Both the position numbers and the translations under genes were made by a program. This document shows positions 5,219 to 21,989 of a stretch of 64,000 nucleotides of DNA, piece after piece (positions within the stretch are counted from its first letter, which is position 1; every line of letters starts with the position of its first letter). The notes beneath the pieces were generated by a model. The model worked only from the letters and a program-made list of their open reading frames with translations, searched no databases and was not told where the DNA came from. Location: assembly GCF_006125015.1 (NCBI RefSeq), contig NZ_SZZN01000001.1, positions 2,666,001 through 2,730,000 of the forward strand, given 5' to 3'. This DNA comes from Roseovarius arcticus. GTDB lineage: Bacteria > Pseudomonadota > Alphaproteobacteria > Rhodobacterales > Rhodobacteraceae.

Positions 5219-6364
5219 CTATGTTTGTTGTGGTTCAGGAACTGGCATTGGCTTTTCACTCACAACGCCCGGATCCTGCATCTGAGCGGTGCCGGTCACG
5301 TGAGCCATATCCATCATCGGCGTCTCGGCCGCTTCTTGCACAGGAACCATACCGACGTCTGCTGGTGCGCGCTGTGGCGCCGGGCGGACGTCACCCGCGC
5401 CGTCGGGCGTGAGGCGGACGGCGCGGTTACCGTTTAGCTGGCCCAAACGCGCCAGCGCAACGACATGTTTCTGGCTAACCTCCAGCCGGATCTGCATAGG
5501 CCGGTCCATGTTAAACGGCAGCAATGCGCCCGGTCGGAATGCACTCACTTTATCCAGCGGAAGGCTAATCCGGCCCAGTACCGCCTCAAGGCTGACGGGC
5601 GCATCCATAGCGCTTTGCTCTAGCGTGCGTTGCAATGCGCCGCCGTCTGCGTCTGGCGCGGGCGCTGGTGGCACTTCGGGCACGGGAAGCAGGAAGGTTA
5701 TCGCGCCGGGATACGCATCGCCGCCGATTTCGACCATCAGGCGGAACACGTGAAAATCCGCGGCGTGAAGGGCCAGCGACATGCCGCGCGCGTCCTCCAT
5801 CATGACGCCAAAGCGATACCCGGTGGCCCAATGGGGCGCGGCGGGGCTTTCGCTGCCGTGGTCCTCGCCTGCCAGCTTGGCCTCCGCCCCCTTCAGTGCG
5901 GCGTCGATCAGCGGCGCGGCAATTGCGGCGTCGGTGCGCGTCACAGCGCGTCCGCCTGATCCGCGTCCGGTGACCCGGCCAGTCGTCTGCACCTCAATCA
6001 GCGCCGCGAGCAGCGCATCATCAAGTCGAACCGCGCCGCGCGCGCCATTCGGGCCATCAAGTAGCACCAGTAGGCCGCCGCCCTCAAATTCCGGCTTTAG
6101 CGCTGTCTGGCTCAGTTCCACCTGTTCGACCGCGGCAACGACCAGCGGCAGATCAAAAAGAGCATCTGACGACTGAGACAGCGCGAGGCGCAACGCCTTG
6201 GCTGGGGACATTGCGCGCGCCTGATACTCCTCGCGCGAGGCCCGCGCCTTGCGGTGAATAACCGTAGTGCCGTCGACAGATGCCATACGCTGCGCCACCA
6301 TCCCTTGCAGGTTTCCTATGGCGCCGACCGTAACGCCCTTTTGGTTACCAAAAGGTTTCGCCAA
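5219..6364 (-). CDS. FliM/FliN-like (SpoA domain) motor-switch-type protein
   Basis: A 381-residue protein. Residues ~60-240 resemble the middle domain of flagellar switch protein FliM (V-A-A-V-E-Q-V-E-L-S-Q, then L-L-V-L-L-D-G, then A-T-G-Y-R-F), and ~255-325 form a SpoA/FliN-type C-terminal domain (VSLEAVLGRISLPLDKVSAF, then G-A-L-L-P-F, then A-R-L-G-Q-L-N-G-N-R-A-V-R-L). The short CheY-P-binding peptide at the FliM N-terminus (LSQDEIDxL type) is absent. A Pro/Ala-rich tail ends the protein. The start is a TTG at 6364 with CAGGAC upstream. It lies only 24 bases after the sensor kinase stop and is probably cotranscribed with it, outside any flagellar operon. It could be the cell's real FliM or a specialised relative. 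Confidence 0.75.
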   Translation of the reverse strand: MAKPFGNQKGVTVGAIGNLQGMVAQRMASVDGTTVIHRKARASREEYQARAMSPAKALRLALSQSSDALFDLPLVVAAVEQVELSQTALKPEFEGGGLLVLLDGPNGARGAVRLDDALLAALIEVQTTGRVTGRGSGGRAVTRTDAAIAAPLIDAALKGAEAKLAGEDHGSESPAAPHWATGYRFGVMMEDARGMSLALHAADFHVFRLMVEIGGDAYPGAITFLLPVPEVPPAPAPDADGGALQRTLEQSAMDAPVSLEAVLGRISLPLDKVSAFRPGALLPFNMDRPMQIRLEVSQKHVVALARLGQLNGNRAVRLTPDGAGDVRPAPQRAPADVGMVPVQEAAETPMMDMAHVTGTAQMQDPGVVSEKPMPVPEPQQT

Positions 6365-6388
6365 TGCGTCCTGCGGCCTATTATTCGC

Positions 6389-9055
6389 CTAGCTTGCTCC
6401 AAGCGGCAGCGTCACGCGAAACGCCGCGCCGCCCTGCCCCGGGAGGTAGGTGATCGTGCCGCCCAGTCGGTGCATGATCTCGCGGCAAATCGCGAGGCCA
6501 AGGCCTGCACCCGGCGCGCGCGTCTGGCCTAGCCGCGAGAACTTCTCAAAAATCAGCGCTTCATCCTTCAGCGGGATGCCAGTGCCGTTATCAACGAAAT
6601 CGATCACCAACCCAGCCTCGCCGATCTCTGCGCGGACCTCCAGCATCGGCGCGGGGGCATCGCAATACTTGCGAACGTTGGCGATCAGATTGATAAACAC
6701 CTGCGCGAGGCGGTCCATATCGGTGCTTAGCTGCACGGCCTCACCGCCCGCATCGCGCATGATCCGCAGGCTGCCCGGAACACCGCCCATCGTGGCCGCG
6801 ACGGCGCGGTCCAATACCTCGGCCAGCGTTCCGGTTTGCGCATTCAACAACACTTGCCCCGATTCCAGGACCGAAAGATCCAGCAAATCATCCAGCAACC
6901 GCGTCAGACGCAGCGACTCGCCATGGATGATCGTCGCGTATTTCTGCAACTCGTCCGGCGCTAAACCGCCATCGCGCAAAATCTCAGAAAAGGCGCGGAT
7001 CGAGGTCATGGGCGTGCGCAGTTCGTGGCTGACCTGGCTCAGAAAGCCGTCCTTTTGCACGGAAATCTGGGTGAGCTTCTCGTTCACCTCGCGCAATTGC
7101 CGCGCAGTGCGCGCCTGCTCTTCCGATTTCGCCTCTAGCTGGCTGGAGTATTCCATGATCTGCGCCGTCTCGTCCGCGACGGCCAGCAGATCCTCAACCG
7201 ACACGGTGGCCCGCCCGACGATCTGGCTGATCATCGCGTGCGCCGTGGCGGCTCCGACAGAGCCGGACAGGCGCCGTTCCAGCCATTCCAGAAATTCTGG
7301 TGACGGCTCGGGTAGATAACCGCTCAGGCCTTGGCGGCGGGCGGCGCGGGCGAACATCTCTTGCGCCTCAGCGGCCCCCATGATGCGCTGCGCCATGATC
7401 AGCAGGTCTTCGGATTGGCCGAGGCCGCCCGTCCAACTGCCGGGGCTTTGTGAATGATCGAAAACGTTGACGAATTGCGCGCCTTGCAGCCGCTCAACCG
7501 GGCTGGGAAACCCAAGGATCGACACGACGCAGAACGCCGCCGTGTTCAGCCCCATCGACCACATCACCGCATGGACCAAAGGATCCATGCCGCCCGTCCA
7601 GAATAGGGCCTGCGGGCGCAGCCAAGTCAGTCCGAAAGGGCCTGCATCAAACACATGCTGCGGCAGGATCACCCCCGCACCAAAGCTGGGCAGAAAGAGG
7701 CAATAGACCCACAGTGCGAAACCAACGCCAAGCCCCGCCAACGCGCCGTTGCGCGTAGCGCCGCGCCACACTAATCCGCCCATGAGGGCGGGCAGAAACT
7801 GCGCCACCCCGGCGAACGCGACGAGGCCGATAGCCGCCAGCGCCGTGCCACCACCCGAAAGGCGAAAATAGAGGTACCCCAGCATGACGACGCCGCCGAT
7901 GGACAGGCGGCGGGCCAGCAGCGCCACCTGCCGCACATCGCCCGACATCATCGCCGCGCCCCCGGTGGCGCGCAGCCAGATCGGCATCACGATATGGTTC
8001 GACACCATTGTTGATAGTGCAATGGCCGCAACGATCACCATCGACGTCGCAGATGAAAATCCGCCAAGGAACGACAGAATCGCCAGCCCGTCCTGCCCCG
8101 CCAGCAACGGCAGGTTCAGAACATAGAGGTCCGGGTTTGATCCCTGTGGCATCAGGTCCAGCCCGACGGCGGCGATAGGCACGACAAAGAGACTGATCAA
8201 CATCAGATAGAGGGGAAAGGCCCATGCGGCGGTGCGCAGATGGCTTTCATCCTCATTTTCGACCACCATGACCTGAAACATGCGAGGCAGGCACAGGAAC
8301 GCGGCCGCCGACAGCAGCGTCAACGCGGTCCAGCGGCTGCCTGACACGTCAAAATCGCCGATAGGCGAGGCGTCGATACGCTCCAGCGTCGCGGCAAGGC
8401 CGCCCTCCAGACCCCAGACGACAAATATACCGACGGCGAGCAAGGCCAGCAGCTTCACGATCGCCTCCAGCGCGATGGCGATGACAACGCCGTGGTGCCG
8501 CTCGTTCGCGTCCAGATTACGGGTGCCAAAGAGGATGGTGAACACCGTTAGGCCCAGCGCCACATAGACGGCGATGGATTGAACAGACCTGCCCCCTTCT
8601 GGCCCTGGCGGCGAAAAGGCGGCAAAGGATAGCGTGACCGATTGCAATTGCAGCGCGATATAGGGCGTGGTGCCGAACACCGCGAGGATGGTGACGCAAA
8701 CCGCCAACAGGTTCGACTTGCCATACCGGGACGAGATCATGTCGGCGATCGAGGTGATGCGCTGGCTACGGCCCACCCGCACCATCTTGCGCAGGGTCCA
8801 CCACCAGCCAATCATCACAAGGCTGGGCCCGAGGTAGATGGTGACGTACTCCATCCCCGATCTCGCGGCAAAGCCGACGGCGCCGTAGAATGTCCACGCC
8901 GTGCAGTAAATCGACAGCGACAGCGTATAGACCAGAGGCGAGCGCAGCCATGCACCTCGCCCGCGCCTAGCTGCGCGGTCAGCGGCAAAGGCGACGGCAA
9001 AGAGAAAGATCACATAGATCACACAAACCGCGGCGAGGATGCCGGGCGTGGCCAT
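6389..9055 (-). CDS. SSS-type sensor histidine kinase (CbrA/CrbS-like)
   Basis: An 888-residue fused transporter-kinase. Residues ~1-500 form a sodium:solute symporter-like membrane domain (about 13 helices; Y-T-L-S-L-S-I-Y-C-T-A-W-T-F-Y-G near the start, SIADMISSRYGKS after helix 3). A STAC-like linker follows (E-R-R-L-S-G-S-V-G-A-A-T-A-H), then a coiled segment. The kinase core has the H-box SHELRTP with phospho-His about residue 677, an N-box near 788 (FINLIANVRKY), D-N-G-T-G-I-P near 822 and GAGLGLA near 849. No PAS domain is obvious. Relatives CbrA and CrbS control carbon use and the acetate switch. Its start overlaps the stop of the preceding membrane gene by one base, and acs lies in the divergent operon. 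Confidence 0.93.
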   Translation of the reverse strand: MATPGILAAVCVIYVIFLFAVAFAADRAARRGRGAWLRSPLVYTLSLSIYCTAWTFYGAVGFAARSGMEYVTIYLGPSLVMIGWWWTLRKMVRVGRSQRITSIADMISSRYGKSNLLAVCVTILAVFGTTPYIALQLQSVTLSFAAFSPPGPEGGRSVQSIAVYVALGLTVFTILFGTRNLDANERHHGVVIAIALEAIVKLLALLAVGIFVVWGLEGGLAATLERIDASPIGDFDVSGSRWTALTLLSAAAFLCLPRMFQVMVVENEDESHLRTAAWAFPLYLMLISLFVVPIAAVGLDLMPQGSNPDLYVLNLPLLAGQDGLAILSFLGGFSSATSMVIVAAIALSTMVSNHIVMPIWLRATGGAAMMSGDVRQVALLARRLSIGGVVMLGYLYFRLSGGGTALAAIGLVAFAGVAQFLPALMGGLVWRGATRNGALAGLGVGFALWVYCLFLPSFGAGVILPQHVFDAGPFGLTWLRPQALFWTGGMDPLVHAVMWSMGLNTAAFCVVSILGFPSPVERLQGAQFVNVFDHSQSPGSWTGGLGQSEDLLIMAQRIMGAAEAQEMFARAARRQGLSGYLPEPSPEFLEWLERRLSGSVGAATAHAMISQIVGRATVSVEDLLAVADETAQIMEYSSQLEAKSEEQARTARQLREVNEKLTQISVQKDGFLSQVSHELRTPMTSIRAFSEILRDGGLAPDELQKYATIIHGESLRLTRLLDDLLDLSVLESGQVLLNAQTGTLAEVLDRAVAATMGGVPGSLRIMRDAGGEAVQLSTDMDRLAQVFINLIANVRKYCDAPAPMLEVRAEIGEAGLVIDFVDNGTGIPLKDEALIFEKFSRLGQTRAPGAGLGLAICREIMHRLGGTITYLPGQGGAAFRVTLPLGAS

Positions 9056-9384
9056 CAGCCGCGCCGCGTGTCTGCGGCGCCCGCGTCATCGCTTGCCGAT
9101 TGGGGCGCAGCGCCAATCCCCAAAATACGCGTGATAACCGCCGAAAGCATCACTAGTCCGGCCCAGACGGCAAAGACGTAGATCATCACATGCGAGGTAC
9201 GCGCCTCGCCGCCATTCTGTCCCAGCCACAGCAGCGGCAGCGCAAAAAGAAGCGCGCCCAAAATGGGCAGAAGCGCGGCGGCGTCCCTCATGCGGCGTTG
9301 GCGGTACGTGGCGCGTGCAAGAAAGACGGGGCGCGTGACCGGCGGCGCCGCATTGGGTTTTTTGGCGGGTTCAGGCGCACTCAT
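9055..9384 (-). CDS. Two-helix membrane protein linked to the sensor kinase
   Basis: A 109-residue protein with a Pro/Lys/Arg-rich N-terminus (~35 residues) and two membrane helices (about 38-55 and 66-88). Its start overlaps the response regulator stop by 4 bases (ATGA) and its stop overlaps the kinase start by one base, which indicates translational coupling of the three products. I see no known family motif; it does not look like DUF485 (YjcH), the usual small partner of the acetate symporter ActP. By position it could be an accessory subunit of the SSS-type kinase, which is inference. Confidence 0.72.
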   Translation of the reverse strand: MSAPEPAKKPNAAPPVTRPVFLARATYRQRRMRDAAALLPILGALLFALPLLWLGQNGGEARTSHVMIYVFAVWAGLVMLSAVITRILGIGAAPQSASDDAGAADTRRG

Positions 9385-9752
9385 GCAGGGCCAGCCAACG
9401 CGCGCACTGCCTCCAGCATCTCTGCGTTGGAGAAGGGTTTGGTCATGAAACGGCTCGCGCCCGCACGCTCGGCCATCTCGCGATCCTTGCGCTGGCCGCG
9501 CGCGGTCAGCATCAGAACGGGCGTGGCTCCCAGATCCGCATCGCCGCGAATATCCGCAAGCAACTCAAAGCCAGAGCGGTGCGGCAGCATCACGTCGAGG
9601 ATGATCAAATCAGCGCGACGTTCGCGCACCGCGTTCATCGCGCCCTCGCCGCCCGAATGGGTGCGCACGTGCCAGCCATCGCGCGACAGAATAAAACTGA
9701 TCGCCTCGATGATGTTCGGCTCGTCCTCTATGATCAAAACCTGCCCCGCCAT
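9381..9752 (-). CDS. Single-domain response regulator
   Basis: A 123-residue stand-alone receiver domain. Acidic pocket E9-D10, phospho-acceptor D53 in LIILDVMLP, T83 (MLTARG) and K105 (MTKPFS) are all present, so it should be phosphorylatable. There is no output domain, unlike the LuxR-type partner CrbR of CrbS systems. The start at 9752 (MAGQVLIIED) is the only one that begins a receiver; the longer frame upstream is not receiver-like. It is cotranscribed with the membrane protein and the SSS kinase and lies 82 bases after the ScfR-type regulator gene. Confidence 0.92.
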   Translation of the reverse strand: MAGQVLIIEDEPNIIEAISFILSRDGWHVRTHSGGEGAMNAVRERRADLIILDVMLPHRSGFELLADIRGDADLGATPVLMLTARGQRKDREMAERAGASRFMTKPFSNAEMLEAVRALAGPA

Positions 9753-9834
9753 GCCGTGCGCCCCTCCCAAAGTGCAAGCCCGTATGGCGCCACTATTGGG
9801 CCAAGGGCCGGCGCATGTCAAAACCGGGTTTAGT

Positions 9835-11175
9835 CTAAGCCGCGCCCATCTGCGGCAGGATCGACGGCTCGCGCCGGGCAGCGCAGGCAGTGCGCGGGCA
9901 GATCCGGCATGATGTGCCAACCTGCATCGCGTCCTCTGCCTCCACATTTGGGTCCGCAGGCATAAGCAGCATAGTGGCGCGCAGCAGGGGGGGCATGTTC
10001 AGCTGAGGCGCGCCAACCTCCTCGGTGCAGGCCAGCGCGCGCACCGGACGCGCGCCCCTGCCCGGCTGCACCAGATAGGTGCCCAGCGCCATGCCGGGCT
10101 GCGCCATCGCGCGAAACAGCGGCCAAAGCGGGCAGGCCCCCGCGAGGCGCGTGGCAACAAAGCCGCCGACGGGTTTGAGCGTCAGGATCGCCCCCGACGC
10201 ATCGACCGAGATCAGGCCAACCGGGCCAACTGCATCCTCCGGCATCGCGGCCAACCGGCGGCAGACGCGTGCAACCGGCGCACCCAAATGCTGCGCCAAC
10301 GCGACCGGGGCAACTCCCAGCGCCTCCACCATGTCCAGCAGACGCGTCTGCGGCAGCGCGGCAGCATCACTGCGATACGCCTCCAGCGCCGCGCGGGCCA
10401 GATCGTGCGCACCCGTCCCTGCGCGCAGGCCGCCTGCCTGCAGCGCGGCGTCTATGTCACCGTCACCGCCAGCCTCAAGCTGGCTGAAATGATGCCCGGC
10501 TCCCTCAAGAAATCTGTCCAGCTCGTCCTGCGGCGACAACATCCCTGCATCCGCGCCCGGCCCGTCGTCTAAGTAGCGTACCAAACGCTCGGCGCTGCCA
10601 GCCAGACGCTGGCTGTCTTCGCCCAGATTGCGGTGAAAGCGTGCCTGCCATTCTGGCTCCAGCGCGGCGGTGTCAGTCAGGATCGACGCAGTCGAACGGA
10701 TCGCAGTCACAACCGACAGCACTTCATGCAGGGACGCGGCCAGATGCGGGTCATGCGCCAGCCGATCCGTCAGCGCGTCGGCCCGGCCCGCGTGTTCCTG
10801 TCCCCGGCGCAGTGTCGCGACCAGCAGCTGCGCCCAGCCCGGAAAGCGGCCGGCGAATTCCTCCATACGGTCAAGCTCGGGGCGGGCGGGTTCAGCGCGC
10901 GCCGCCTCCTGCGCGCCTGCCAAATCCGCCATATCACCCGCCGCCTCGCGCAAGCCTGCCATCAGCACCGCCTCCCCGCCATTGGCGAGCGCTTGCGCAT
11001 CCACCTCGAGCGCGGCAGCAATACGCAAGAGGATCGTGCCACCGATTCTGCGGCGGTTATGCTCGATCAGGTTGAGGTATGAGGGCGAAATGCCCGCCTG
11101 CCGTGCAAGCGCACCTTGCGCTAATCCGCGCGTCAGACGCCTCTCGCGGATGCGGGTGCCGGTCAATGTCCCCAT
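9835..11175 (-). CDS. ScfR/RamB-type short-chain fatty acyl regulator (HTH + DUF2083)
   Basis: A 446-residue XRE-family regulator. Residues ~5-60 form the helix-turn-helix (IRERRLTRGLAQGALARQAG, then SPSYLNLIEHNRR). The C-terminal half matches the short-chain fatty acyl regulator domain, ending in the family's Cys cluster (C-R-I-C-P-R-T-A-C-A-A-R-R). Known relatives are RamB (acetate metabolism, Corynebacterium) and PccR (propionyl-CoA carboxylase, Rhodobacter), which sense acyl-CoAs. An IrrE/ImmA-type HExxH motif is not visible. The ATG at 11175 has AGGGGGCCGTC upstream and begins as relatives do; a TTG at 11226 would add 17 residues. It diverges from the ABC importer-acs operon and is a likely regulator of it. 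Confidence 0.88.
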   Translation of the reverse strand: MGTLTGTRIRERRLTRGLAQGALARQAGISPSYLNLIEHNRRRIGGTILLRIAAALEVDAQALANGGEAVLMAGLREAAGDMADLAGAQEAARAEPARPELDRMEEFAGRFPGWAQLLVATLRRGQEHAGRADALTDRLAHDPHLAASLHEVLSVVTAIRSTASILTDTAALEPEWQARFHRNLGEDSQRLAGSAERLVRYLDDGPGADAGMLSPQDELDRFLEGAGHHFSQLEAGGDGDIDAALQAGGLRAGTGAHDLARAALEAYRSDAAALPQTRLLDMVEALGVAPVALAQHLGAPVARVCRRLAAMPEDAVGPVGLISVDASGAILTLKPVGGFVATRLAGACPLWPLFRAMAQPGMALGTYLVQPGRGARPVRALACTEEVGAPQLNMPPLLRATMLLMPADPNVEAEDAMQVGTSCRICPRTACAARREPSILPQMGAA

Positions 11176-11243
11176 GACGGCCCCCTGTCCCGCGCCGATC
11201 TGATCGCCATTATCGTTTTGTTTCAATCCGATTCCCCAAATAA

Positions 11244-11303
11244 TTTACAGATATTTACACAAAGCGACAAAGTTTTGTGCACTTATTTACAAAATAATTG
11301 TGC
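11244..11303. promoter_or_regulatory. Divergent AT-rich control region with operator-like repeats
   Basis: An AT-rich island inside GC-rich DNA, between the ScfR-type regulator and the ABC operon. TTTACA occurs three times (11244, 11254, 11286), the first two exactly one helical turn apart. CACAAA (11258-11263) and TTTGTG (11274-11279) form an inverted repeat, and ACAA/TTGT (11289-11301) lies within GCAC/GTGC (11279-11303). The AAA/TTT-with-GCA flavour recalls the TTTGCAAA-type sites known for PccR/RamB regulators, but it is not identical. Confidence 0.5.
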
Positions 11304-11423
11304 GGCGCGGGGTAGTTGTTGAGAAGTTTTCTTGCGCCGTGCCATGTTGTGTTTGCACACTGTGCGATCCGGCAAACCGCGGAGGAGGCGCTTGCCGTGA
11401 TTAGTCTTTAAGGGAGGGTATTC

Positions 11424-12797
11424 ATGTCCACATCGAATTTCACACGTCGCGGCCTGATGAAAACAAGCGCGATCGCAGGCGCTGGTCTGGCGATTCCGAC
11501 GATTTTCACTGCATCCAGCGTTTCGGCGTTTACGAACGACCCGTCTGATGCCAGCAACGTCACGCTGGGCTTTAACGTGCCGCAGTCGGGGCCGTACGCC
11601 GATGAGGGCGCCGACGAGTTGCGCGCATACGAACTGGCGGTCGAGCACCTGAATGGCGGCGGCGACGGCGGCATGATGCAGACTTTCAGCTCCAAGGCGC
11701 TGCAAGGTAACGGCATCATGGGCAAGAAGGTCGACTACGTTTCGGGCGATACCCAGACGAAATCGGACGCAGCCCGCGCATCGGCCAAGTCGATGATCGA
11801 AAAGGACGGCGCTGTCGTCATCACGGGCGGCTCAAGCTCGGGCGTGGCTGTGGCTGTGCAGGCGCTGTGCCAAGAGGCGGGCGTCATCTTTATGGCGGGC
11901 CTCACCCACTCCAACGACACGACCGGCAAGGACCGCAAGGCCAACGGTTTCCGTCACTTCTTTAACAGCTGGATGTCCGGCGCGGCGCTCGCGCCCGTTC
12001 TGGCAAATGCCTACGGCACCGACCGCAAGGCCTATCACCTGACAGCTGACTACAACTGGGGCTACACCACCGAGGAAGCGATCCGCAACTCGACCGAAGC
12101 CATGGGCTGGGAAACTGTCAATGCGGTGAAAACCCCGCTGACCCAGACCGACTTTAGCGCCTATATCACGCCTGTCCTGCAGTCAGACGCGGATGTGCTG
12201 GTTCTGAACCACTACGGCGGAAACATGGTCAACTCGCTGACCAACGCCGTCCAGTTCGGCCTGCGCGACAAGATGGTCAACGGCAAGAAGTTCGAGATCA
12301 TCGTTCCGCTTTACTCCGAGCTGATGGCACGCGGCGCCGGCAAGAGCATCGCCGGCATCTTTGGCTCGCAGAACTGGGACTGGAAGCTGGAAAAGGAAAA
12401 AGGCGACCGCTATGTCGGCACAGACGCGTTCGTGAAATCCTTTGGCGAAAAGTTCGGCTTCCCGCCCAGCCAGGCGGCGCATACCTGCTACGTGCAGACC
12501 CTGCTTTACGCGGATGCGGTCGAGCGTGCAGGCAGCTTTAATCCCTGCGCTGTTGTCGAGGCCCTCCAAGGCTTCGAGTTCGATGGTATGGGTAGCGGCC
12601 CGACCCTCTATCGCGGCGAAGATCACCAGTGCTTCAAGGACGTGGTCGTCGTGCGCGGGAAAGAGAACCCCGAGAACGAGTTCGACCTGGTCGAGATCGT
12701 CGAAGTCACGCCCGCCGAGCAAGTGACCTACGCCCCAGATGCGCCCGAGTTTGGCGGCCCTGAGGCGACACTGGGCGAATGCAACGCCGGCGCATAA
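11424..12797 (+). CDS. HAAT-type ABC transporter substrate-binding protein (Tat-exported)
   Basis: A 457-residue periplasmic binding protein of the branched-chain amino acid/amide family. The N-terminus carries a twin-arginine motif (TRRGLMKTSA) and a hydrophobic stretch ending near FTASSVSA, so it is probably exported folded by Tat. The Peripla_BP_6 fold shows as T-L-G-F-N-V-P-Q-S-G-P-Y-A-D-E-G, V-V-I-T-G-G-S-S-S-G-V-A-V and D-Y-N-W-G-Y-T. Several Cys residues lie in the second half (H-T-C-Y, N-P-C-A, H-Q-C-F, GEC). It heads a complete importer operon ending in acs, so the ligand is more likely a short carboxylate or acetyl-yielding compound than leucine; the true ligand is unknown. Confidence 0.85.
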   Translation: MSTSNFTRRGLMKTSAIAGAGLAIPTIFTASSVSAFTNDPSDASNVTLGFNVPQSGPYADEGADELRAYELAVEHLNGGGDGGMMQTFSSKALQGNGIMGKKVDYVSGDTQTKSDAARASAKSMIEKDGAVVITGGSSSGVAVAVQALCQEAGVIFMAGLTHSNDTTGKDRKANGFRHFFNSWMSGAALAPVLANAYGTDRKAYHLTADYNWGYTTEEAIRNSTEAMGWETVNAVKTPLTQTDFSAYITPVLQSDADVLVLNHYGGNMVNSLTNAVQFGLRDKMVNGKKFEIIVPLYSELMARGAGKSIAGIFGSQNWDWKLEKEKGDRYVGTDAFVKSFGEKFGFPPSQAAHTCYVQTLLYADAVERAGSFNPCAVVEALQGFEFDGMGSGPTLYRGEDHQCFKDVVVVRGKENPENEFDLVEIVEVTPAEQVTYAPDAPEFGGPEATLGECNAGA

Positions 12798-12807
12798 GCG
12801 CATAGCC

Positions 12808-12883
12808 GGGCCGTCCCTATCGGGGGCGGCCCACCCAATGCGCGCGGCCCCCGAGGGGGGCCATTCCGGCGATCATACGCCGG
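12808..12883 (+). promoter_or_regulatory. Three tandem intercistronic stem-loops
   Basis: Between the binding protein gene and the permease gene are three hairpins in 76 bases: GGGCCGTCCC with GGGGGCGGCCC (12808-12832), GGCCCCC with GGGGGGCC (12846-12862), and a perfect CCGGCG/CGCCGG (12866-12883). No U-tract follows. Such structures commonly protect the upstream mRNA from 3' decay and allow more binding protein than membrane subunits to be made. Confidence 0.65.
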
Positions 12884-12910
12884 ACTGAACTCTGACATGC
12901 GAGGCAAACA

Positions 12911-13942
12911 ATGGATGCGATAATCCTGCAAATCCTCAATGGTCTGGACAAGGGATCGGCCTATGCGCTGATCGCCCTTGGACTGACATTGATCTTCGGC
13001 ACGCTGGGGGTGGTCAACTTTGCCCACGGCGCTCTGTTCATGATCGGCGCGTTTTGTGCCGTCACGCTCAGCCGCATCCTGACGTTCAGTCACGAGGTGG
13101 TGGACCCGACGCGCACCGACTTCCTTGGTAATCCGATGACGGTCGACGTGCCCTACATTTACAGTTTTGTGGGGGAAAACGCCGGACGCACCATTATCGA
13201 CTGGGCCGTGCCGCTATCCATTCTCTTTGCCATTCCCGTTATGATCGCCATTGGCGTCATCATGGAGCGGGGCCTGATCAAGCATTTCTACAAGCGCCCC
13301 CATGCCGACCAGATCCTGGTGACCTTCGGCCTCGCGATCGTGCTTCAGGAAGTGATCAAGTATTTCTACGGCGCAAACCCGATCCCGACGCCCGCGCCGT
13401 CCGCCTTTCGCGGGTCCTTCGATTTTGGCGCGTTCCTTGGGATGCAGGCCAATTCGATCATCTATCCCTATTGGCGCCTCGTCTATTTCGCATTTTCGTT
13501 GGTCATTATCGGCGGGGTCTTTGCCTTCCTGCGCTATACCACCTTCGGGATGGTCGTGCGCGCAGGGATGGCAGACCGCGAGACTGTGGGCCTGCTGGGC
13601 ATCAACATCGACAAGCGGTTTACGATTATGTTCGGCATCGCCGCCGCCGTCGCGGGCCTTGCCGGGGTGATGTACACCCCCATCAACAGCCCGAACTACC
13701 ACATGGGCATGGACTTTCTGGTCCTCAGCTTTGTCGTGGTCGTCGTGGGCGGCATGGGCAGCCTGCCGGGCGCTGTGCTGGCCGGGTTCCTCTTGGGCAT
13801 ACTCGAAAGTTTCGCCTCCATGTCCGCCGTGCTTGAGGCGCTGCCGGGCATCAATCAGATCGTCATCTACCTGGTGGCTATTATCATTTTGCTGACCCGC
13901 CCGCGCGGCCTGATGGGCCGCAAAGGCGTGATGGAGGAATAA
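12911..13942 (+). CDS. HAAT ABC transporter permease (LivH-like)
   Basis: A 343-residue inner-membrane permease. Family marks: [17 protein letters not shown] near the N-terminus, [24 protein letters not shown], and the conserved [20 protein letters not shown] late in the protein. About eight to nine helices. A loop of ~35 residues after the second helix is longer than in typical LivH. It is four bases from the second permease gene and pairs with it to form the pore. Confidence 0.88.
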
Positions 13943-13946
13943 GCCA

Positions 13947-15137
13947 ATGCTAGGACTGACACGCAAAGACACCATGTTGCTGGTGCTGGTTACAGCGCTC
14001 TCGCTGCTGGCCCCTTTCCTCCTGAACCCCTTCCCGGTGAATTCCGGTATGGCGCAGTTTAATGCTGGGTATCCCGACCTGATGCAGCGCTTTGTGATCT
14101 TTGGGATATTCGCCATCGGTTTCAACATCCTGTTTGGCCTGACCGGCTATCTCAGCTTTGGCCACGCGGCCTTCCTTGGCGTCGGCAGTTATGCCGCGAT
14201 ATGGATGATGAAGCTGCTGACAGCCAACATCATTCCCGGCATTGTTATGTCGGTGATCGTTGCCGGCCTTTTTGCCCTCATTGTCGGCTTTATTTCGCTG
14301 CGGCGGTCAGGCATCTACTTTGCCATCCTCACGCTGGCCTTTGCCCAAATGTCATACGCGCTGGCCTATTCGGTGCTGACCCCGATTACGGGCGGCGAGA
14401 CCGGCTTGCAGTTGAAACTGAACGATGCGCGTGTCCTTGATGGTGCGCTGCAGCAGGGCGAGCGGGCGCGGGCAAACCTCTTTGGCCTCGATATGACGTC
14501 CAGCTTCGATCTGCACTTCGGTGGTTGGCACTTCACGTTCAACGCTGGCTACTACATTGCGGCCGTCGTGCTGATCCTAGCCTTCTATCTGTCGATCCGC
14601 ATCTTTCGCTCGCCCTTCGGCATGATGCTGCGAGCGATCAAGAGCAACAACACCCGCATGACATATACTGGCCTTAATGCGCGTCCCTATGCGCTGGCGG
14701 CCTTTGTCATATCGGGCATGTATGCGGGCCTCGCCGGGGGCCTCATGGTCGCGATGGATACCCAAGTGGGCCCCGAGCGGATGTTTTGGACTGCGTCAGG
14801 CGAGGTGGTGCTGATGACCATCCTTGGCGGCGCGGGGACGCTGATCGGTCCAGTTTTGGGCGCGGGCCTGATCAAATACATGGAAAACATCATTTCCAAG
14901 ATCAACAGCGGCGTCCTGCACGACTGGTTTTATTGGATGCCCGACGGGCTGGAGGATCTGGTAATCACGCTGATTTACCCGTTCGTCGGTAAGGGCTGGC
15001 ACCTGACGCTTGGCATCGTATTCATGCTGGTTGTCATCTTTCTGCCCGGCGGTCTTGTCGAGGGGGGGCAGCGTATCTCGCGCCTCGTTCGCGGCAAACG
15101 CGCCAAACCGTCCGATCAAACCACTCCGGCTGAATAA
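13947..15137 (+). CDS. HAAT ABC transporter permease (LivM-like)
   Basis: A 396-residue permease with about ten helices. LivM-type segments are [52 protein letters not shown] and [16 protein letters not shown] polar insertion around residues 150-195 separates two helices and probably faces the periplasm. It lies 13 bases before the first ATPase gene. Confidence 0.88.
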
Positions 15138-15149
15138 GGAAACGCGACT

Positions 15150-15908
15150 ATGGGCATTCTCGAAGTCAAGAACGTGAACAAGCGTTTCGGCGGCCTTCAA
15201 GCGCTGGGGGACGTAAACCTAAGCGTTGCGGAAAATACCGTCCACGCCATTATTGGCCCCAACGGTGCAGGCAAATCCACCCTGCTGAACGTGCTGGTGG
15301 GCAAACTCATCCCAGACACCGGATCGGTCATGTTCGACGGCCAATCGGTGCTGGGGCGCAAGCCCTATGAGATCAACCAAATGGGCATTTCCCGCGTGTT
15401 CCAGACGCCCGAAATCTTTGGCGATCTGACTGTGCTGGAAAACATGATGATCCCGATTTTTGCCAAACGCGATGGATCGTTCCGCATGCATGCGATCGAG
15501 GCCGTCGGCAGCGAGCGCGCGGTGATCGAGCAGGCCGAACATATGCTGGAGAGTCTGAACATGGCCAACCAGCGCCACAATCATTCGGCTTCGATGAGCC
15601 GTGGCAACAAGCGGCGGCTGGAAATCGGCATGTGCCTTGCACAAGAGCCGCGCCTCTTGTTGCTGGACGAGCCGACGGCAGGCATGGCGCGCGCCGACAC
15701 CAACAACACCATCGACCTGTTGAAACAGATCAAAGAAGAGCGCGACATCACCATCGCCATCATCGAGCACGACATGCATGTGGTGTTCAGCCTTGCCGAG
15801 CGGATCACCGTGCTGGCGCAGGGATCACCGCTGGTCGAGGATACACCGGACAAGATCAAGGGCCACCCCAAGGTGCGCGAAGCCTATCTGGGCGAGTCTG
15901 CCGACTGA
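15150..15908 (+). CDS. HAAT ABC transporter ATPase 1 (LivG-like)
   Basis: A 252-residue nucleotide-binding subunit. Walker A is GPNGAGKST, Walker B LLLLDEPTAG, and the switch His lies in I-I-E-H-D-M-H-V-V. The ABC signature, normally LSxGxxR or LAYGxQR, reads MSRGNKRRLEIG: the central Gly is kept, but an Arg sits where a Gly, Tyr or His is usual. The C-terminal end K-V-R-E-A-Y-L-G-E is typical of LivG. AAGGAAACG is the ribosome binding site. It pairs with the next ATPase as a heterodimer. Confidence 0.88.
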   Translation: MGILEVKNVNKRFGGLQALGDVNLSVAENTVHAIIGPNGAGKSTLLNVLVGKLIPDTGSVMFDGQSVLGRKPYEINQMGISRVFQTPEIFGDLTVLENMMIPIFAKRDGSFRMHAIEAVGSERAVIEQAEHMLESLNMANQRHNHSASMSRGNKRRLEIGMCLAQEPRLLLLDEPTAGMARADTNNTIDLLKQIKEERDITIAIIEHDMHVVFSLAERITVLAQGSPLVEDTPDKIKGHPKVREAYLGESAD

Positions 15909-15958
15909 CGCCCAGCGCGCCGGATACGCCCCAGACGCCCCACACGAGGACCTAAATA

Positions 15959-16714
15959 ATGACCGACAAACCTGATTTTTCTAACAACGCCAATATGGCC
16001 GCCACGGCCCCCGCCTTCCTTTCGGTCTGGGGCATGCAGGCCTATTACGGCGAAAGCTACATCGTCCAGGACATTAGCTTTAACGTCCACGAAGGCGAAA
16101 TTCTGGCCCTGCTGGGCCGCAACGGCGCGGGCAAGACGACGACACTGCGCGCCATTGCCCGCATGGACAATCCGCAACTGAACCACGGCGAGATTTGGCT
16201 GGATCACAAGCCACTGCACAAAATGAAGAGCTATGAGGCAGCCGTCGCCGGTATCGGCCTCGTGCCAGAGGATCGCTGCATCATTCCCGGCCTCACGGTC
16301 GAGGAAAACCTCCAACTGGCGCAGATCGCACCGCCTATTGGCTGGTCGCTTGAGCGCTTGTACGATTTATTCCCCCGCCTTGCCGAGCGCCGCAAGCAGG
16401 ACGGCGTCACACTGTCGGGCGGCGAGCAGCAGATGCTGGCCTTGGCGCGTGCGCTAGCCCGCGATATCAAGGTGCTGCTGCTGGACGAGCCCTACGAGGG
16501 GCTGGCACCTGTTATTGTCGACGAAATCGAGAAAACTCTGCGCATTATCAAGGCACAAGGCATCACAACCGTGATCGTTGAGCAGAACGCAGTGCGCGCG
16601 CTGGAGCTGTCTGACCGCGCCGTGATCCTTGACACTGGCGGCATCGTCTTTGACGGTAGTGCTGCCGAGGTTCTGAACGACGAGAAGCTGCGCGCAGAAT
16701 ATCTGGCGATTTAG
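15959..16714 (+). CDS. HAAT ABC transporter ATPase 2 (LivF-like)
   Basis: A 251-residue nucleotide-binding subunit. An extra ~20-residue polar N-terminus precedes the usual [14 protein letters not shown] beginning. Walker A is GRNGAGKTT, the signature [15 protein letters not shown] is canonical, Walker B is [12 protein letters not shown] and the switch motif reads V-I-V-E-Q-N. It ends with E-Y-L-A-I as LivF proteins do. It lies 62 bases before acs in the same direction. Confidence 0.9.
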
Positions 16715-16776
16715 CCCAATGCGGCCTTTGGACCGCGTCTCATTCGCCAGCACTCAAAGTTACAAAGGTCATTTCT

Positions 16777-18726
16777 ATGCCTGATACAACATATCCGCCG
16801 TCAAAAGAGTTCGCCAAGTCCGCGCATGTCAATGCAGACAAGTACGAGAAGATGTACGCCGCTTCGATCAAGGATCCCGAAGGTTTTTGGAAGGAGCACG
16901 CGCAGAAACTTGACTGGATAGAGCCGTTCACCAAGGTCAAGAAAACGTCCTTCGAATTGGGCGGTGTCGATATTCGCTGGTTCGAGGACGGCGTGATGAA
17001 CGTCGCGGCCAACTGCATTGACCGCCATTTGGCCACGCGCGGCGACCAGACCGCGATCATATTCGAGCCGGACGAGCCTACCGACCCAGCCCAGCACATC
17101 ACCTATAACCAACTGCACGAAAAGGTGAATCGCTTTGCCAACGTGCTGCTAAGCCAAGGCATAATGCGCGGCGACCGTGTGGTAATCTATCTGCCGATGA
17201 TCCCCGAGGCGGCCTATGCCATGCTGGCCTGCGCACGCATCGGCGCCGTCCACTCCATCGTCTTTGCGGGCTTCTCGCCCGACGCGCTGGCCAACCGCAT
17301 CAACAATTCGGGCGCCAAGGTTGTCATCACCGCCGACGAGGCCCCCCGCGGTGGCCGCCGTACAGCGCTTAAATCCAACACCGATGCGGCGTTGCTACAT
17401 TGTGACGACAAGGTGCGCTGCCTCGTGGTAAAGCATACCGGCGGCCAAACGACATGGATCCAAGGCCGCGATATCGACGTCAAGGCGCAGATGGAGCAAG
17501 CCAGCCCTGACTGTCCCGCCCGGCCTATGAATGCCGAGGACCCACTGTTTATTCTTTATACTTCCGGCTCCACCGGACAGCCCAAGGGCGTTGTCCACAG
17601 CTCAGCCGGCTATCTGCTTTATGCGGGCCTCACGCATAAATATGTATTCGATTATCACGATGGCGACGTGTTCTGGTGCACCGCCGATGTCGGCTGGGTC
17701 ACGGGCCACAGCTATATCATCTATGGCCCGCTGGTGAATGGCGCGACCACCGTCATGTTTGAGGGCGTGCCGACCTACCCCGATGCCAGCCGCTTCTGGC
17801 AGGTCTGCGAAAAACATAAGGTCAATCAGTTCTACACCGCCCCGACCGCGATCCGCGCATTGATGGCGCAGGGCAAAGAGTTCGTCGAAAAATGCGATCT
17901 ATCGGACCTCAAGGTGCTGGGCACTGTGGGCGAGCCGATTAATCCCGAGGCTTGGAATTGGTACAATGACGTCGTCGGCAAAGGCACGCGCCCAATCGTC
18001 GATACGTGGTGGCAGACCGAAACGGGCGGGCACCTGATGACCCCCCTTCCCGGTGCCACGGCGACCAAACCGGGCAGCTGCACCAAGCCATTCTTTGGGA
18101 TCGAGCCTGTCATTCTAGATGCGACATCTGGTGAGGAAATCAGCAGCGTCGAGGCCGAAGGTGTCTTGTGCATCAAAGACAGCTGGCCCGGCCAGATGCG
18201 TACCGTCTACGGCGATCACGAGCGTTTCGAGAAGACGTATTTCAGCGACTACAAAGGCTACTACTTCACTGGTGACGGCTGTCGCCGCGATACGGATGGC
18301 TACTACTGGATTACTGGCCGGGTCGATGACGTTATCAACGTATCGGGCCACCGCATGGGCACGGCAGAGGTCGAATCGGCCCTCGTCGCGCATCCGGACG
18401 TAGCCGAGGCCGCAGTCGTCGGCTATCCGCACGAGATTAAGGGTCAAGGCATCTATGCCTACGTGACCGTAATGAACGGGGTCGAGCAGACGGAAGAGCT
18501 ACGCAAAGAGCTTGAGAAATGGGTGCGGACCGAAATCGGCCCAATCGCCAAGCCGGACTTGATTCAGTGGGCGCCCGGCCTGCCCAAGACCCGCTCAGGC
18601 AAGATCATGCGCCGCATCCTGCGCAAGATAGCGGAAAACGACTTTGACACGCTGGGCGATACTTCAACGTTGGCCGATCCGGCGGTCGTCGACGATCTGA
18701 TCGGAGGCCGGAAAAGCCTTGGCTAA
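16777..18726 (+). CDS. acs: Acetyl-CoA synthetase
   Basis: A 649-residue AMP-forming ligase, the usual length, making acetyl-CoA from acetate, ATP and CoA through acetyl-AMP. Motifs seen: [15 protein letters not shown] (P-loop, ~265), [10 protein letters not shown] (acyl pocket), [28 protein letters not shown], and near the C-terminus [11 protein letters not shown], whose Lys is the known acetylation site that switches Acs off. W-W-Q-T-E-T is the acetate-type pocket rather than the propionyl-CoA synthetase form. It is the last gene of the importer operon, which supports use of the imported compound as acetate or a close relative. Confidence 0.97.
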
Positions 18727-18770: not shown

Positions 18771-19235
18771 TCATCCGCGTCCGCGATAGGGCGGCACGCC
18801 CTGATCGGGAATCCAGACGCCGTCCGGCGCGACGCCCGTCTGATAGAATACGTCGATCGGAATGCCCCCGCGCGGATACCAATAGCCGCCGATGCGCAGC
18901 CATTTCGCCTCAGTGAATTCCGCGATGCGGCGCCCGATACTGACGGTGCAATCCTCGTGAAACGCGCCATGATTGCGGAAACTCCCCAGATACAGCTTCA
19001 GCGATTTACTCTCGACCAGCCAATTGCCTGGCACATAGTCGATCACCAGATGGGCAAAATCGGGCTGGCCAGTCATCGGGCACAGCGACGTAAATTCGGG
19101 CGCGACAAAACGCACATTATAGAGCGCATCAGCCTGCGGATTCTGCACCCTCTCCAATTCGGCCTTGGCCGGATCATCGGGAAGCGCGGTATTCGCGCCG
19201 AGCTGTTTCAGGTCGCTGTAAATATTTTCGCTCAT
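18771..19235 (-). CDS. queF: NADPH-dependent 7-cyano-7-deazaguanine (preQ0) reductase
   Basis: A 154-residue unimodular QueF, which reduces the nitrile of preQ0 to the amine preQ1. The catalytic Cys and Asp are in [11 protein letters not shown], and the QueF motif [16 protein letters not shown] follows. The fold is T-fold like GTP cyclohydrolase I. It is the last gene of queC-queD-queE-queF and converges on acs. Confidence 0.96.
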
Positions 19236-19253
19236 CTCGTCTCCTATCGCGGC

Positions 19254-19976
19254 CTAAACGCCGCGTTTGTTTCCCCATAGCATGACATGCAGCTGGGGTA
19301 GCACGCGCGCCGCGTGCCAACGATCCGCGATCACCAGATCAACCAGCCACCGCATCCGCGCGTCGATACCGGGCAGGTCGACGGCGGCGCTGTCATCGCC
19401 GGGTGGGGGCGGTGTGTGATTGCCGGGCTGCAAGTAAACTGGCAAATCAGGATGGCGCGCGGCCACATCGCGCGCATAAGCGTAGTCGGCATCATCGAAC
19501 ACCACGATCTTTAGCACGGTGGCGGCACCCTGCGCGGCATCCACGCACTCTTGCAGCATCGCCCAGTCAGTCTGCATTTCCGATGATGGCGGCTTGGGGC
19601 TAAGGACCAGCATATCCAGCTGCGAAAACCAGTCCCTGGATACCGATCCTTGTGTTTCCAGAGCAAACCCATAGCCGCCCTCGCGCCCCATCTCGATCAA
19701 ATCTCCAAATGGCTGGATCGCTGGATTGCCGCCTGACAGCGTCACAGTCAGCGGCTGGCCACCCGACAGGCGGCGCACCTCATCCATGACCGCAGACGCG
19801 CTCATCGGGGTCCAATCATGGCGGTATTCGCTATCGACAGCATGCAGGCTATCGCACCAGACGCAGCGATAATCGCAGCCGCCCGTCCGCACGAAAACCG
19901 TTGGCACACCGATCAGCGCACCTTCGCCTTGTATCGTGGGGCCGAAAATCTCAGATATGCGGATTGCATCGCTCAT
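19254..19976 (-). CDS. queE: 7-carboxy-7-deazaguanine synthase (radical SAM)
   Basis: A 240-residue radical SAM enzyme converting 6-carboxytetrahydropterin to 7-carboxy-7-deazaguanine. The cluster motif C-D-Y-R-C-V-W-C (CxxxCxxC) is at about residues 33-40, preceded by I-Q-G-E-G and [15 protein letters not shown] binds SAM. The last third, with a run of Pro and Gly, is variable. Its start overlaps the queD stop by 4 bases (ATGA). Confidence 0.94.
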
Positions 19977-20329
19977 GGCCGGTATTCAGCCCATGTTTTC
20001 GGCGTCTCGCTAACCTTAATGGCTGCCGTTTCCGGCCAGCGGGCGGCGCACCAATCATATAGGTGCTTGGCCAGTTGCTCGGCGGTGACGCAATCATCGC
20101 CCAGCACATCGTTCAAATGGCGATGATCCAGAGTGTCGTCAATGTACCGCTTCAGCGGCGCCAGTTCGAGGTAGTCCCGGACAAATCCATGTTGGTTCAG
20201 CGTGTCCGACGCCAGTTCGACCACCGCGACATAATTGTGCCCATGCAACCTGGCGCATTGGTGATCTTCGGGCAGACCAAAGAGCTGGTGAGACGCCGAG
20301 AAGTGGAATTCCTTAGTGATGCGATACAT
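19973..20329 (-). CDS. queD: 6-carboxy-5,6,7,8-tetrahydropterin synthase
   Basis: A 118-residue QueD. Zinc-binding His residues appear in H-F-S-A-S-H-Q-L and L-H-G-H-N-Y; the catalytic Cys is in [10 protein letters not shown], and D-H-R-H-L-N-D carries the third conserved His cluster. It converts dihydroneopterin triphosphate to the tetrahydropterin used by QueE. It starts 3 bases after the queC stop and overlaps queE. Confidence 0.95.
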
Positions 20330-20332
20330 ATC

Positions 20333-21028
20333 CTACCCTTCCGTTCCGGTGGCCACGCGCCAAAAATCGGCGTCGGCATAGATCGTGGGGTCAACAATGC
20401 CCGCCAGATGAAACGCCTCGCGCCGTTCAACGCAGGTGCCGCAGCGCCCGCAATGCAGATCGCCGCCCTTATAGCACGACCATGTCTGGTCAAACGGCGT
20501 TCCATGCTTGGCGCCGTCAATGGCGATATCGGCCTTTGAGCCATGAACATAGGGCGTCAGCAGTTGCACCTCTGCGTAGCCGTCCATGGCCCGGTCCTCC
20601 ATTGCCTGAAAGGCCGCAATGAAATCGGGTCGGCAGTCGGGATAGATAAAGTGATCGCCGCCGTGCACGGCAGTTGCCACCGCATCCACTTTCTGCGCCG
20701 CTGCCATGCCAAAGGCGATGGCCAGCATTATCGCGTTGCGGTTTGGCACCACGGTAACCTTCATCGTATCTTCGGCGTAATGGCCGTCTGGCACCTCGAT
20801 ATCGTCGGTCAGGGCGCTACCACCGAGGGCGGCCCCGACGCTCGCAATATCGATAATATGGTGGGGAACGTCCAATCGCTGCGCACATTGGGCGGCAAAA
20901 GCCACCTCTTTGGAATGGCGTTGGCCGTAGTCAAGAGACAGCAACGCGTGCAGATTGCCCTCTGCCGCAATGCGATGGGCAAGCGCTACAGAATCCATCC
21001 CGCCGGAGCAGATGACTATCACTTTCAT
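20333..21028 (-). CDS. queC: 7-cyano-7-deazaguanine (preQ0) synthase
   Basis: A 231-residue QueC. The PP-loop ATPase motif C-S-G-G-M-D-S-V is at the N-terminus, and the zinc-binding Cys set C-Y-K-G-G-D-L-H-C-G-R-C-G-T-C is near residue 195. It makes preQ0 from 7-carboxy-7-deazaguanine and ammonium. It is the first gene of the operon; AAGGACACGAC precedes the ATG. I see no preQ1 riboswitch in the leader upstream (21029-21118). Confidence 0.96.
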   Translation of the reverse strand: MKVIVICSGGMDSVALAHRIAAEGNLHALLSLDYGQRHSKEVAFAAQCAQRLDVPHHIIDIASVGAALGGSALTDDIEVPDGHYAEDTMKVTVVPNRNAIMLAIAFGMAAAQKVDAVATAVHGGDHFIYPDCRPDFIAAFQAMEDRAMDGYAEVQLLTPYVHGSKADIAIDGAKHGTPFDQTWSCYKGGDLHCGRCGTCVERREAFHLAGIVDPTIYADADFWRVATGTEG

Positions 21029-21118
21029 GTCGTGTCCTTGTTTTGAGCGGGTAGGCTGCGACCGCGTATACCCTGCATTTAAGGGTGCGCCGCGCCCAAG
21101 GCAACCCGCCCGGCCGCG

Positions 21119-21355
21119 TTATCGGGTGATCAAGTCGCCGTCGATAGGCATGGCGGTGCCGATTACGTCATGGGACAGCGGACTACCTCGCCAGAGGCCT
21201 TTTCCCCGATCTCAGCAGCGTTGATGACGCCGCCCATGGGCTGCTTTTCGCCCAAGAGGTCGGCGATTGCAGCCTCGCGCCCTGTGCAATATCCCAGCCC
21301 GGATTTCTCGGATCGAGCCAGTGACAAGCGCTATCTTTCCTACCAGATCCGTCAT
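21119..21355 (-). pseudogene. Remnant of an SDR-family gene, probably 3-hydroxybutyrate dehydrogenase
   Basis: Pieces of a short-chain dehydrogenase lie in three frames within 237 bases. From an ATG at 21355: M-T-D-L-V-G-K-I-A-L-V-T-G-S, the standard SDR beginning with the nucleotide-binding TG. A second frame gives E-A-A-I-A-D-L-L-G-E-K-Q-P followed by a degraded V-E-E-I-G segment, which in the family comes ~200 residues later. A third frame ends D-V-I-G-T-A-M-P-I-D-G-D-L-I-T-R-stop, the SDR C-terminus (usually ITGxxLPVDGGW). The catalytic Ser-Tyr-Lys region is gone. The L-L-x-x-x-Q-P then V-E-E-I arrangement suggests 3-hydroxybutyrate dehydrogenase, which is inference. This fills most of the 465-base gap 21029-21493. 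Confidence 0.65.
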
Positions 21356-21493
21356 TTCAGGCCCCTTTCGCCGTCGCGCAGCGCTGCGCAGGCCATCCCA
21401 TGCACAAACCCGGTTTTCTATGGCGGCGGCATGACATATAAGCGGTCGAAATCATAGCGCGCCAAAAGGCGCGCAAGCCGTTCGAGGATACCA

Positions 21494-21979: not shown

Positions 21980-21989
21980 GGCACCAGCA

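Follow-up and report, generated by a model that had tools for sequence, protein, structure and literature searches.

A proposed uptake-and-activation locus for short monocarboxylates in Roseovarius arcticus and its relatives: an SLC5/STAC-type sensor unit divergent from an ABC importer and acs

Introduction

What is carried by an ABC importer that is named as a branched-chain amino acid transporter, is followed directly by acs (the gene of acetyl-CoA synthetase) and diverges from a sensor unit with a transporter-like histidine kinase? The question is raised by positions 5219-18726 of a 64,000-nucleotide stretch of Roseovarius arcticus DNA (the window, C1:2666001-2730000), part of a 4.22-Mb genome in two contigs. 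A sequence-only reading had suggested that the importer serves acetate, another short carboxylate or a compound yielding acetate, and that the divergent unit senses it. All the genes named there are present as intact frames at the places given, and the importer is complete. From the gene content, the neighbourhood, the distribution of acs and a symporter, and a shared promoter repeat, we infer that the locus, under the control of ScfR, rather likely serves the uptake and activation of acetate or of some other short monocarboxylate on which Acs acts. As a functional association of the locus genes the acetate-type reading is well supported, and the ligand itself is putative.

Acetate is one of the main compounds that pass between phytoplankton and marine bacteria. 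Dedicated acetate importers of the SSS, AceTr/SatP and MCT types are secondary transporters, and an ABC importer for acetate, if true, would reach lower concentrations.

Conservation of the two units

Conservation was surveyed in 149 Rhodobacteraceae genomes, one per genus. The binding protein of the importer was found in 105 of the 149 genera, or in 104 after a match of 36% identity (G085) was dropped, and the kinase ortholog in 133. No genome has the importer without the kinase, and 29 of the 149 genera have the kinase without the importer. A larger draw of Rhodobacteraceae gave the importer in 271 of 394 genomes. Importer loci were fetched from 100 of the other 103 genera (those of G017, G044 and G050 were left out), and these, the window and a second set of 80 named loci, best matches only, make 181 loci. 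Eight of the 100 share their binding-protein sequence with a named locus and are apparently from the same genomes, so that counts over both sets are not independent.

When one locus per genus with enough sequence is considered, ScfR adjoins the importer in 96/98 loci, the receiver in 88/97 and the kinase in 87/94; the corresponding values for the 80 named loci are 75/78, 72/78 and 70/76. The two units thus stay adjacent, as the sequence-only reading had expected of related genomes, and because the arrangement recurs across about 100 genera, it is not due to chance.

Loci lacking the importer were fetched from 20 of the 29 genera. ScfR, receiver and kinase lie together in all 20, the FliM-like gene is beside them in 17, and acs is directly divergent from ScfR in three, in two of which only its start is seen before the contig ends. 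Since ScfR, receiver and kinase stay together even here, the sensor unit is the stable core of the arrangement, to which most genera add the importer and about half add acs. The same persistence favours a different explanation, in which chromosome structure is what brings acs to this spot and the kinase unit has another target, e.g. motility via FliM; the promoter repeat bears on it below.

acs and the SSS symporter

The acs gene of the window (16777-18726, plus strand) begins 62 bases 3' of the importer. Its product is a genuine acetyl-CoA synthetase, as evident from 61% identity to E. coli Acs over 639 residues and the retention of the catalytic motifs. It is the only acs of R. arcticus (the sole genome match at E ≤ 1e-180), and the genome gives no match to PF00474, the SSF family. 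At the same threshold, 121 of the 149 genera have one acs, 15 have two and 13 have none. Among the 100 one-per-genus loci, acs lies directly 3' of the importer in 54 and does not in 37; the remaining nine are undecidable owing to contig ends.

Twelve loci were picked by hand from genomes that lack the importer or keep acs apart from it, and in all 12 the genes flanking acs include a TRAP transporter, an SSS symporter at a distance of 2-3 kb, or the two together. A TRAP and/or SSS symporter locus around acs recurs in other genera (L202-L221). The acs-linked symporter shares 26% identity with ActP of E. coli, whose gene likewise adjoins acs there. Its ortholog is present in 73/149 genera, a count that leaves out the weak matches of G014, G023 and G059 (33-44%). 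In G034, G040, G046, G080, G104, G118, G124, G135 and others, the match is split in two within one longer frame, resembling an insertion near residue 368.

Of the 55 genera that have acs at the importer, that of the window among them, 44 lack the symporter, and of the 37 with acs elsewhere 24 have it (Fisher p 2.2e-5, ignoring kinship). It is likewise found in 32/45 importer-less genera as compared to 41/104 with the importer (p 6e-4, again ignoring kinship). Eleven genera have both acs at the importer and the symporter; ten of these hold two acs genes, one per site, and in the eleventh (G025) the symporter lies just downstream of acs inside the importer locus. Eight pairs of acs copies were compared: four share 98.0, 95.9, 99.6 and 99.7% DNA identity, confined to the acs gene, and the other four are 77-84% identical. 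In the near-identical pairs, L081/L204, L100/L208, L109/L202 and L129/L203, the importer and the SSS/TRAP site have one copy each. Several draft assemblies break inside acs. Four one-per-genus loci have a contig end inside acs, and all four of these genomes possess the symporter, which is expected if two equal acs copies collapse in assembly.

These observations suggest that the importer is able to take the place of the usual acetate transporter. The placement of acs relative to the symporter, the duplication of acs and the promoter repeat described next together tie the importer to acs.

A direct repeat shared by importer and acs promoters

The 197 bases between the genes for ScfR and the binding protein hold TTTACA at 11244, 11254 and 11286. 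The last two form a direct repeat, TTTACA-N26-TTTACA (11254-11291, plus strand), proposed here as an operator, with the third copy at 11244-11249; the pair occurs once in the window. Usable ScfR-importer promoters were obtained from 136 of the 181 loci (window included; 131 distinct sequences). A TTTACA pair in the same orientation with a 32-base period (33 in one) is present in 91 of the 136, amounting to 88 distinct sequences, where base shuffles lead one to expect 0.01.

Where acs stands at its other site (L202-L221), 13 of the 20 promoters have the same pair, at 30-33 bases. TTTACAA occurs in 16 of these 20 promoters; its frequency is 8% in dinucleotide shuffles, and of 2000 random windows from the same loci 81 contain it. 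Each of six control words is found in 0 to 4 of the 136 importer promoters and in 0 to 2 of the 20 acs promoters. Promoters have a higher A+T content, which is why two of the six attain p 0.05 against random windows (TTAATCAA, 0.049; ATTACAAA, 0.021), and the shuffles are therefore the fairer control. The 4.0 Mb of loci fetched around importer, ScfR and acs, as distinct from whole genomes, contain 140 pairs, duplicate genomes and overlapping matches included: 123 upstream of the importer, 13 of acs, three of ScfR in importer-less loci and one elsewhere, the acs and ScfR positions being assigned by coordinates.

At least one TTTACA, in divergent orientation, persists upstream of ScfR in 16/20 importer-less loci, and for this reason ScfR is the candidate binder of the repeat, an assignment we infer together with the direction of control. 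Two known elements were considered as the shared one and set aside. The RamB-like word TTTGCAAA occurs in 4/136 importer promoters, which equals the shuffles, and in 1/20 acs promoters. The ACTU inverted repeat of CrbR, as given in the available part of PMC5715377, has another sequence and symmetry; ACTU itself was not scanned for. A sigma-70 scan stayed at chance level.

Because the pair is common to the importer promoter and the promoters of distant acs genes, a link for which position by itself cannot account, the explanation by chromosome structure with an unrelated kinase unit is considered very improbable.

Ligand of the importer

The importer of the window comprises a HAAT-type binding protein of the Peripla_BP_6 family (11424-12797; PF13458, 228 bits; with a leader of twin-arginine type by eye), two BPD_transp_2 permeases (12911-13942 and 13947-15137; PF02653) and two ATP-binding proteins (15150-15908, PF00005 and PF12399; 15959-16714, PF00005). 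With acs they form the plus-strand unit, 11424-18726, in which the gaps between genes are 113, 4, 12, 50 and 62 bases. The closest binding protein bearing an organism name among the matches listed is that of Roseovarius nanhaiticus (95%).

As the sequence-only reading had foreseen, automatic annotation names this importer a branched-chain amino acid transporter. Its families (PF13458/PF02653) and the leucine binders among its structural matches point the same way, to an ordinary amino acid importer with acs as a casual neighbour. In LivJ, Glu226 is the residue which we take to hold the α-ammonium group of the amino acid; the equivalent position in a sequence alignment of about 20% identity is Asn267, found in at least 90% of 45 binding-protein orthologs, in which the serine motif GGSSSG is invariant. 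This speaks against an amino acid as ligand. The NCBIfam equivalog cut-offs for LivH, LivM and UrtA are also missed by the importer (UrtA 65 and 58 bits, as compared to 495 and 493). Given, in addition, the placement of acs and the repeat pattern, the branched-chain explanation has hardly any probability left.

The model of the binding protein (mean pLDDT 79) is closest to 4maa, 3i09, 3n0w and 3i45, followed by binders of hydroxybenzoate, vanillate, urea, acetamide or butyramide. Leucine binders score nearly the same structural Z as binders of carboxylates, urea and acetamide, and the structure therefore names no ligand. Kinship with AmiC, which binds acetamide or butyramide, and with urea binders favours an importer for an amide, an N-acetyl or another acetylated compound that releases acetate in the cell. 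No amidase or deacetylase was recognised by eye among the recurring neighbours (clusters in at least 8 of the 181 loci), and a recurring metallo-beta-lactamase-like protein (67/181) belongs to an apparent sulfur cluster; such a substrate is thus regarded as unlikely.

A broader role has a somewhat better standing, and is still a minority possibility: the importer would carry lactate, or the short monocarboxylates generally (lactate, pyruvate, propionate), with acs as one among several genes downstream. An ABC operon of Phaeobacter inhibens is said to carry a lactate fitness label. The R. pomeroyi operon SPO1017-1021 (ATP, ATP, permease, permease, binding protein) is labelled a lactic acid ABC transporter in the available passages of PMC9870897 and PMC9723723, and the SLC5/STAC kinase RpuS controls a pyruvate symporter, as excerpted from PMC9100948. 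The likeness of SPO1017-1021 to the present importer is one of gene order. Moreover, lactate is not a substrate of Acs, and the sharing of acs, its duplication and the common repeat are left unexplained if lactate is carried. SPO1848-1850 of R. pomeroyi, labelled branched-chain, is a candidate counterpart of the importer. In the accessible parts of the open-licence literature, the phrase acetate ABC transporter was met just for an Acetobacter pasteurianus metabolic model (PMC6915089).

The sensor unit

The minus-strand unit reads, in order of transcription, ScfR (11226-9835), receiver (9752-9381), two-helix membrane protein (9384-9055), kinase (9055-6389) and FliM-like protein (6364-5219). The gene overlaps described in the sequence-only reading hold for kinase and two-helix protein (1 base) and for two-helix protein and receiver (4 bases); receiver and ScfR are separated by 82 bases, since the receiver starts near 9752 and not at 9947, inside the ScfR gene, as had been proposed.

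The kinase, called SSS-type in that reading, has no Pfam SSF match even at E 10, the model being blind to it, and the transporter-like part emerges from alignment to PDB 10ED. As a single sequence, the kinase matches this entry over residues 10-459. When 26 orthologs (54-71% identity to the R. arcticus kinase) are combined in a profile, the profile aligns to 10ED over 611 positions (3-613) with E 8.5e-93, indicating an SLC5 domain of about 13 helices. This alignment spans residues 6-590 of the 606 in 10ED, reaching into STAC; a single-sequence search with that stretch of the kinase gave no such match. HisKA and HATPase_c follow, and the frame stops after HATPase_c at residue 888, so that the kinase is non-hybrid. 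The receiver is encoded separately as a single-domain response regulator (PF00072, 92 bits). Within the sensor unit there is no LuxR-type gene, ScfR and the receiver-only protein being found instead; CrbR was not sought elsewhere in the genome. Behind the importer or ScfR, some loci where acs is absent from that place (L025:15303-15941, L046:17005-17541 and L192) encode a regulator of LuxR type, part of which looks PAS-like by eye.

According to the available passages of PMC13022988, 10ED shows the SLC5-STAC part of CbrA in complex with CbrX, a small two-helix peptide encoded directly upstream of cbrA and overlapping it. The two-helix protein of the window (109 residues) holds this position and has the 1-base overlap with the kinase start. 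In 83 of the 122 loci where both frames were read, the two genes overlap by 1 base (47) or 4 bases (36). The protein has no Pfam family above cut-off, and similarity to YjcH (DUF485), considered as a possible relative, was not found. By place and overlap it is CbrX-like, and a CbrX-type binding to the SLC5 domain is putative.

The ScfR protein carries an N-terminal helix-turn-helix (HTH_3, 43 bits) and a C-terminal ScfRs domain (PF09856, 46 bits), both above the Pfam cut-offs, and falls short of the RamB equivalog cut-off (110 as compared to 700 bits). The ScfR family responds to short-chain acyl-CoA. Its members RamB and PccR regulate acetate and propionyl-CoA metabolism through operators resembling TTTGCAAA.

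The FliM-like protein

The final gene of the sensor unit had been described as FliM/FliN-like. It is more than a FliN tail, as its product has the whole FliM architecture of middle domain and FliN-type C-terminal domain (PF01052, 43 bits; profile match to Salmonella FliM, 8umd_C). The best Foldseek match of its AlphaFold model is full-length Salmonella FliM (E 9e-13); CheC, FliM middle domains and FliY come next. On the strength of this model, the protein is taken to be a divergent FliM. FliM carries at its N-terminus a CheY-binding motif of EIDALL type; this was not seen in the consensus of 42 orthologs, in which the N-terminus is poorly aligned.

At E ≤ 1e-8, the profile finds matches in 132/149 genera, that is, in 116/121 with FlhA and 16/28 without (p 6.7e-7); at E ≤ 1e-30 the values are 101/121 and 15/28 (p 0.0017). 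Some of the weak matches may be ordinary FliM proteins of other flagella. A purely flagellar role was rejected, a match being kept in 16/28 genera without FlhA, R. arcticus included. Exactly two proteins with a FliN-type domain are present in 101 of the 121 FlhA genera, and 83 of these have a strong FliM-like match; because of this combination, the protein is probably the sole FliM in those 83. Since the R. arcticus genome gives no FlhA match and the FliM-like protein is its one FliN-type-domain protein, it may there be a relic or have another use.

The occurrence of a receiver and a FliM in one operon suggests a CheY-like output. For the fla1 flagellum of P. inhibens, the table passage of PMC12363192 is without fliM, FliM appears in the available text just once, in the references, and the FliM-like gene is not, by name, among the screen's eight genes outside the cluster. 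If real, the FliM link would fill a gap in the described fla1-type flagellum.

Proposed mechanism and significance

In the proposed mechanism, the SLC5/STAC kinase with its CbrX-like partner would read the carboxylate via its transporter-like domain and phosphorylate the separate receiver. ScfR would bind the TTTACA pair in the shared promoter and control its own gene, the importer and acs, as well as acs copies elsewhere in the genome. The importer would take the substrate up against low outside concentrations, and Acs would trap it as a CoA ester. In genomes without the SSS symporter, such as that of R. arcticus, the importer may be the main dedicated route.

The idea of an acetate or short-carboxylate importer, put forward in the sequence-only reading, gains from the placement of acs and the symporter, the duplicated acs, the shared repeat, the missing SSF match and the missing LivJ glutamate. 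Several points weigh against it. The kinase (133/149) is commoner than the importer (104/149), and the sensor unit must therefore do another job too. The acs gene lies beside the importer in just 54 of the 91 evaluable loci and away from it in 37, and the symporter is missing too in 13 of the 37 genera with acs elsewhere, as it is in 13/45 importer-less genera. The pair count comes from fetched loci. In 20 other stretches of the R. arcticus genome (0.40 Mb) there is no second exact pair and one pair with a mismatch, which would fit a small or a diverged regulon. The low identity to LivJ, the structural scores of leucine binders and the lactic acid label of SPO1017-1021 are to be added. Uptake and activation of acetate or another short monocarboxylate is nevertheless the reading favoured.

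A wider proposition is offered tentatively and is, as a whole, doubtful: that a Rhodobacteraceae acetate ABC importer replaces or accompanies the SSS symporter, that the SLC5/STAC kinase and ScfR would run it via TTTACA pairs also governing acs, that genomes with dual uptake keep two acs genes, one for each and often near-identical, and that the FliM and CheY-like receiver of the sensor operon would let carboxylate sensing act on the motor.

The importer is hidden under a branched-chain amino acid name in about 70% of Rhodobacteraceae genera (104/149), and transcriptome studies would misread it as a consequence. The shared repeat provides a regulon open to immediate testing.

Neighbouring genes

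Between acs and accB/accC, the window carries que genes (queF, queE, queD-like and queC, by eye) at 18771-23339; queF, queE and queC are also 3' of acs in L009 and L041, and accB/accC lie closer behind the importer in L025, L046 and L001. A small protein recurs in 117/181 loci about 6.2-8.5 kb left of the binding protein (L001-L180). In the same loci, membrane proteins and the metallo-beta-lactamase-like protein are found near the FliM-like gene, by eye a sulfur-compound cluster.

Comparison with known systems

The locus is close in theme to CrbS/R, in which an SLC5/STAC kinase works with a LuxR-type regulator to control acs and actP in Vibrio, Pseudomonas and Sinorhizobium fredii (available parts of PMC5436829, PMC5715377 and PMC9100948). 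Kinase type, acs and acetate are common to both. CrbS, however, is a hybrid kinase with a LuxR partner, an SSS transporter and the ACTU inverted repeat, whereas the R. arcticus locus has a non-hybrid kinase, a separate receiver, ScfR, an ABC importer and the TTTACA repeat. RpuS/R of S. fredii is similar in being an alphaproteobacterial SLC5/STAC kinase beside a monocarboxylate transporter, with a direct repeat in the promoter, and differs in its hybrid kinase, LuxR regulator and SSS symporter (the pyruvate symporter MctP). Both CrbS and RpuS are described as hybrid kinases with LuxR-type partners in excerpts of PMC9100948, and CrbS also in PMC5436829.

With CbrX-CbrA, the histidine transceptor of Pseudomonas (PDB 10ED; PMC13022988, in part), the locus shares the SLC5-STAC alignment and the overlapping upstream two-helix protein, which has 109 residues as compared to about 58 in CbrX. 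CbrA answers histidine and pairs with the AAA+ regulator CbrB, in contrast to the receiver-only protein and ScfR found here. RamB/PccR resemble the ScfR of R. arcticus in their HTH and ScfRs domains; they are set apart by the RamB cut-off that it misses and by the repeat, which here is TTTACA with a 32-base period.

Among transport systems, E. coli acs-yjcH-actP also places acs next to an acetate transporter, which there is an SSS symporter with a DUF485 partner and no ABC importer. SPO1017-1021 of R. pomeroyi is like the present importer in its HAAT-type gene order, the feature on which the two were compared. The sensor unit extends SLC5/STAC signalling to a non-hybrid, ScfR-linked form, and the new element of the locus is the joining of SLC5/STAC and ScfR sensing to an ABC importer and acs.

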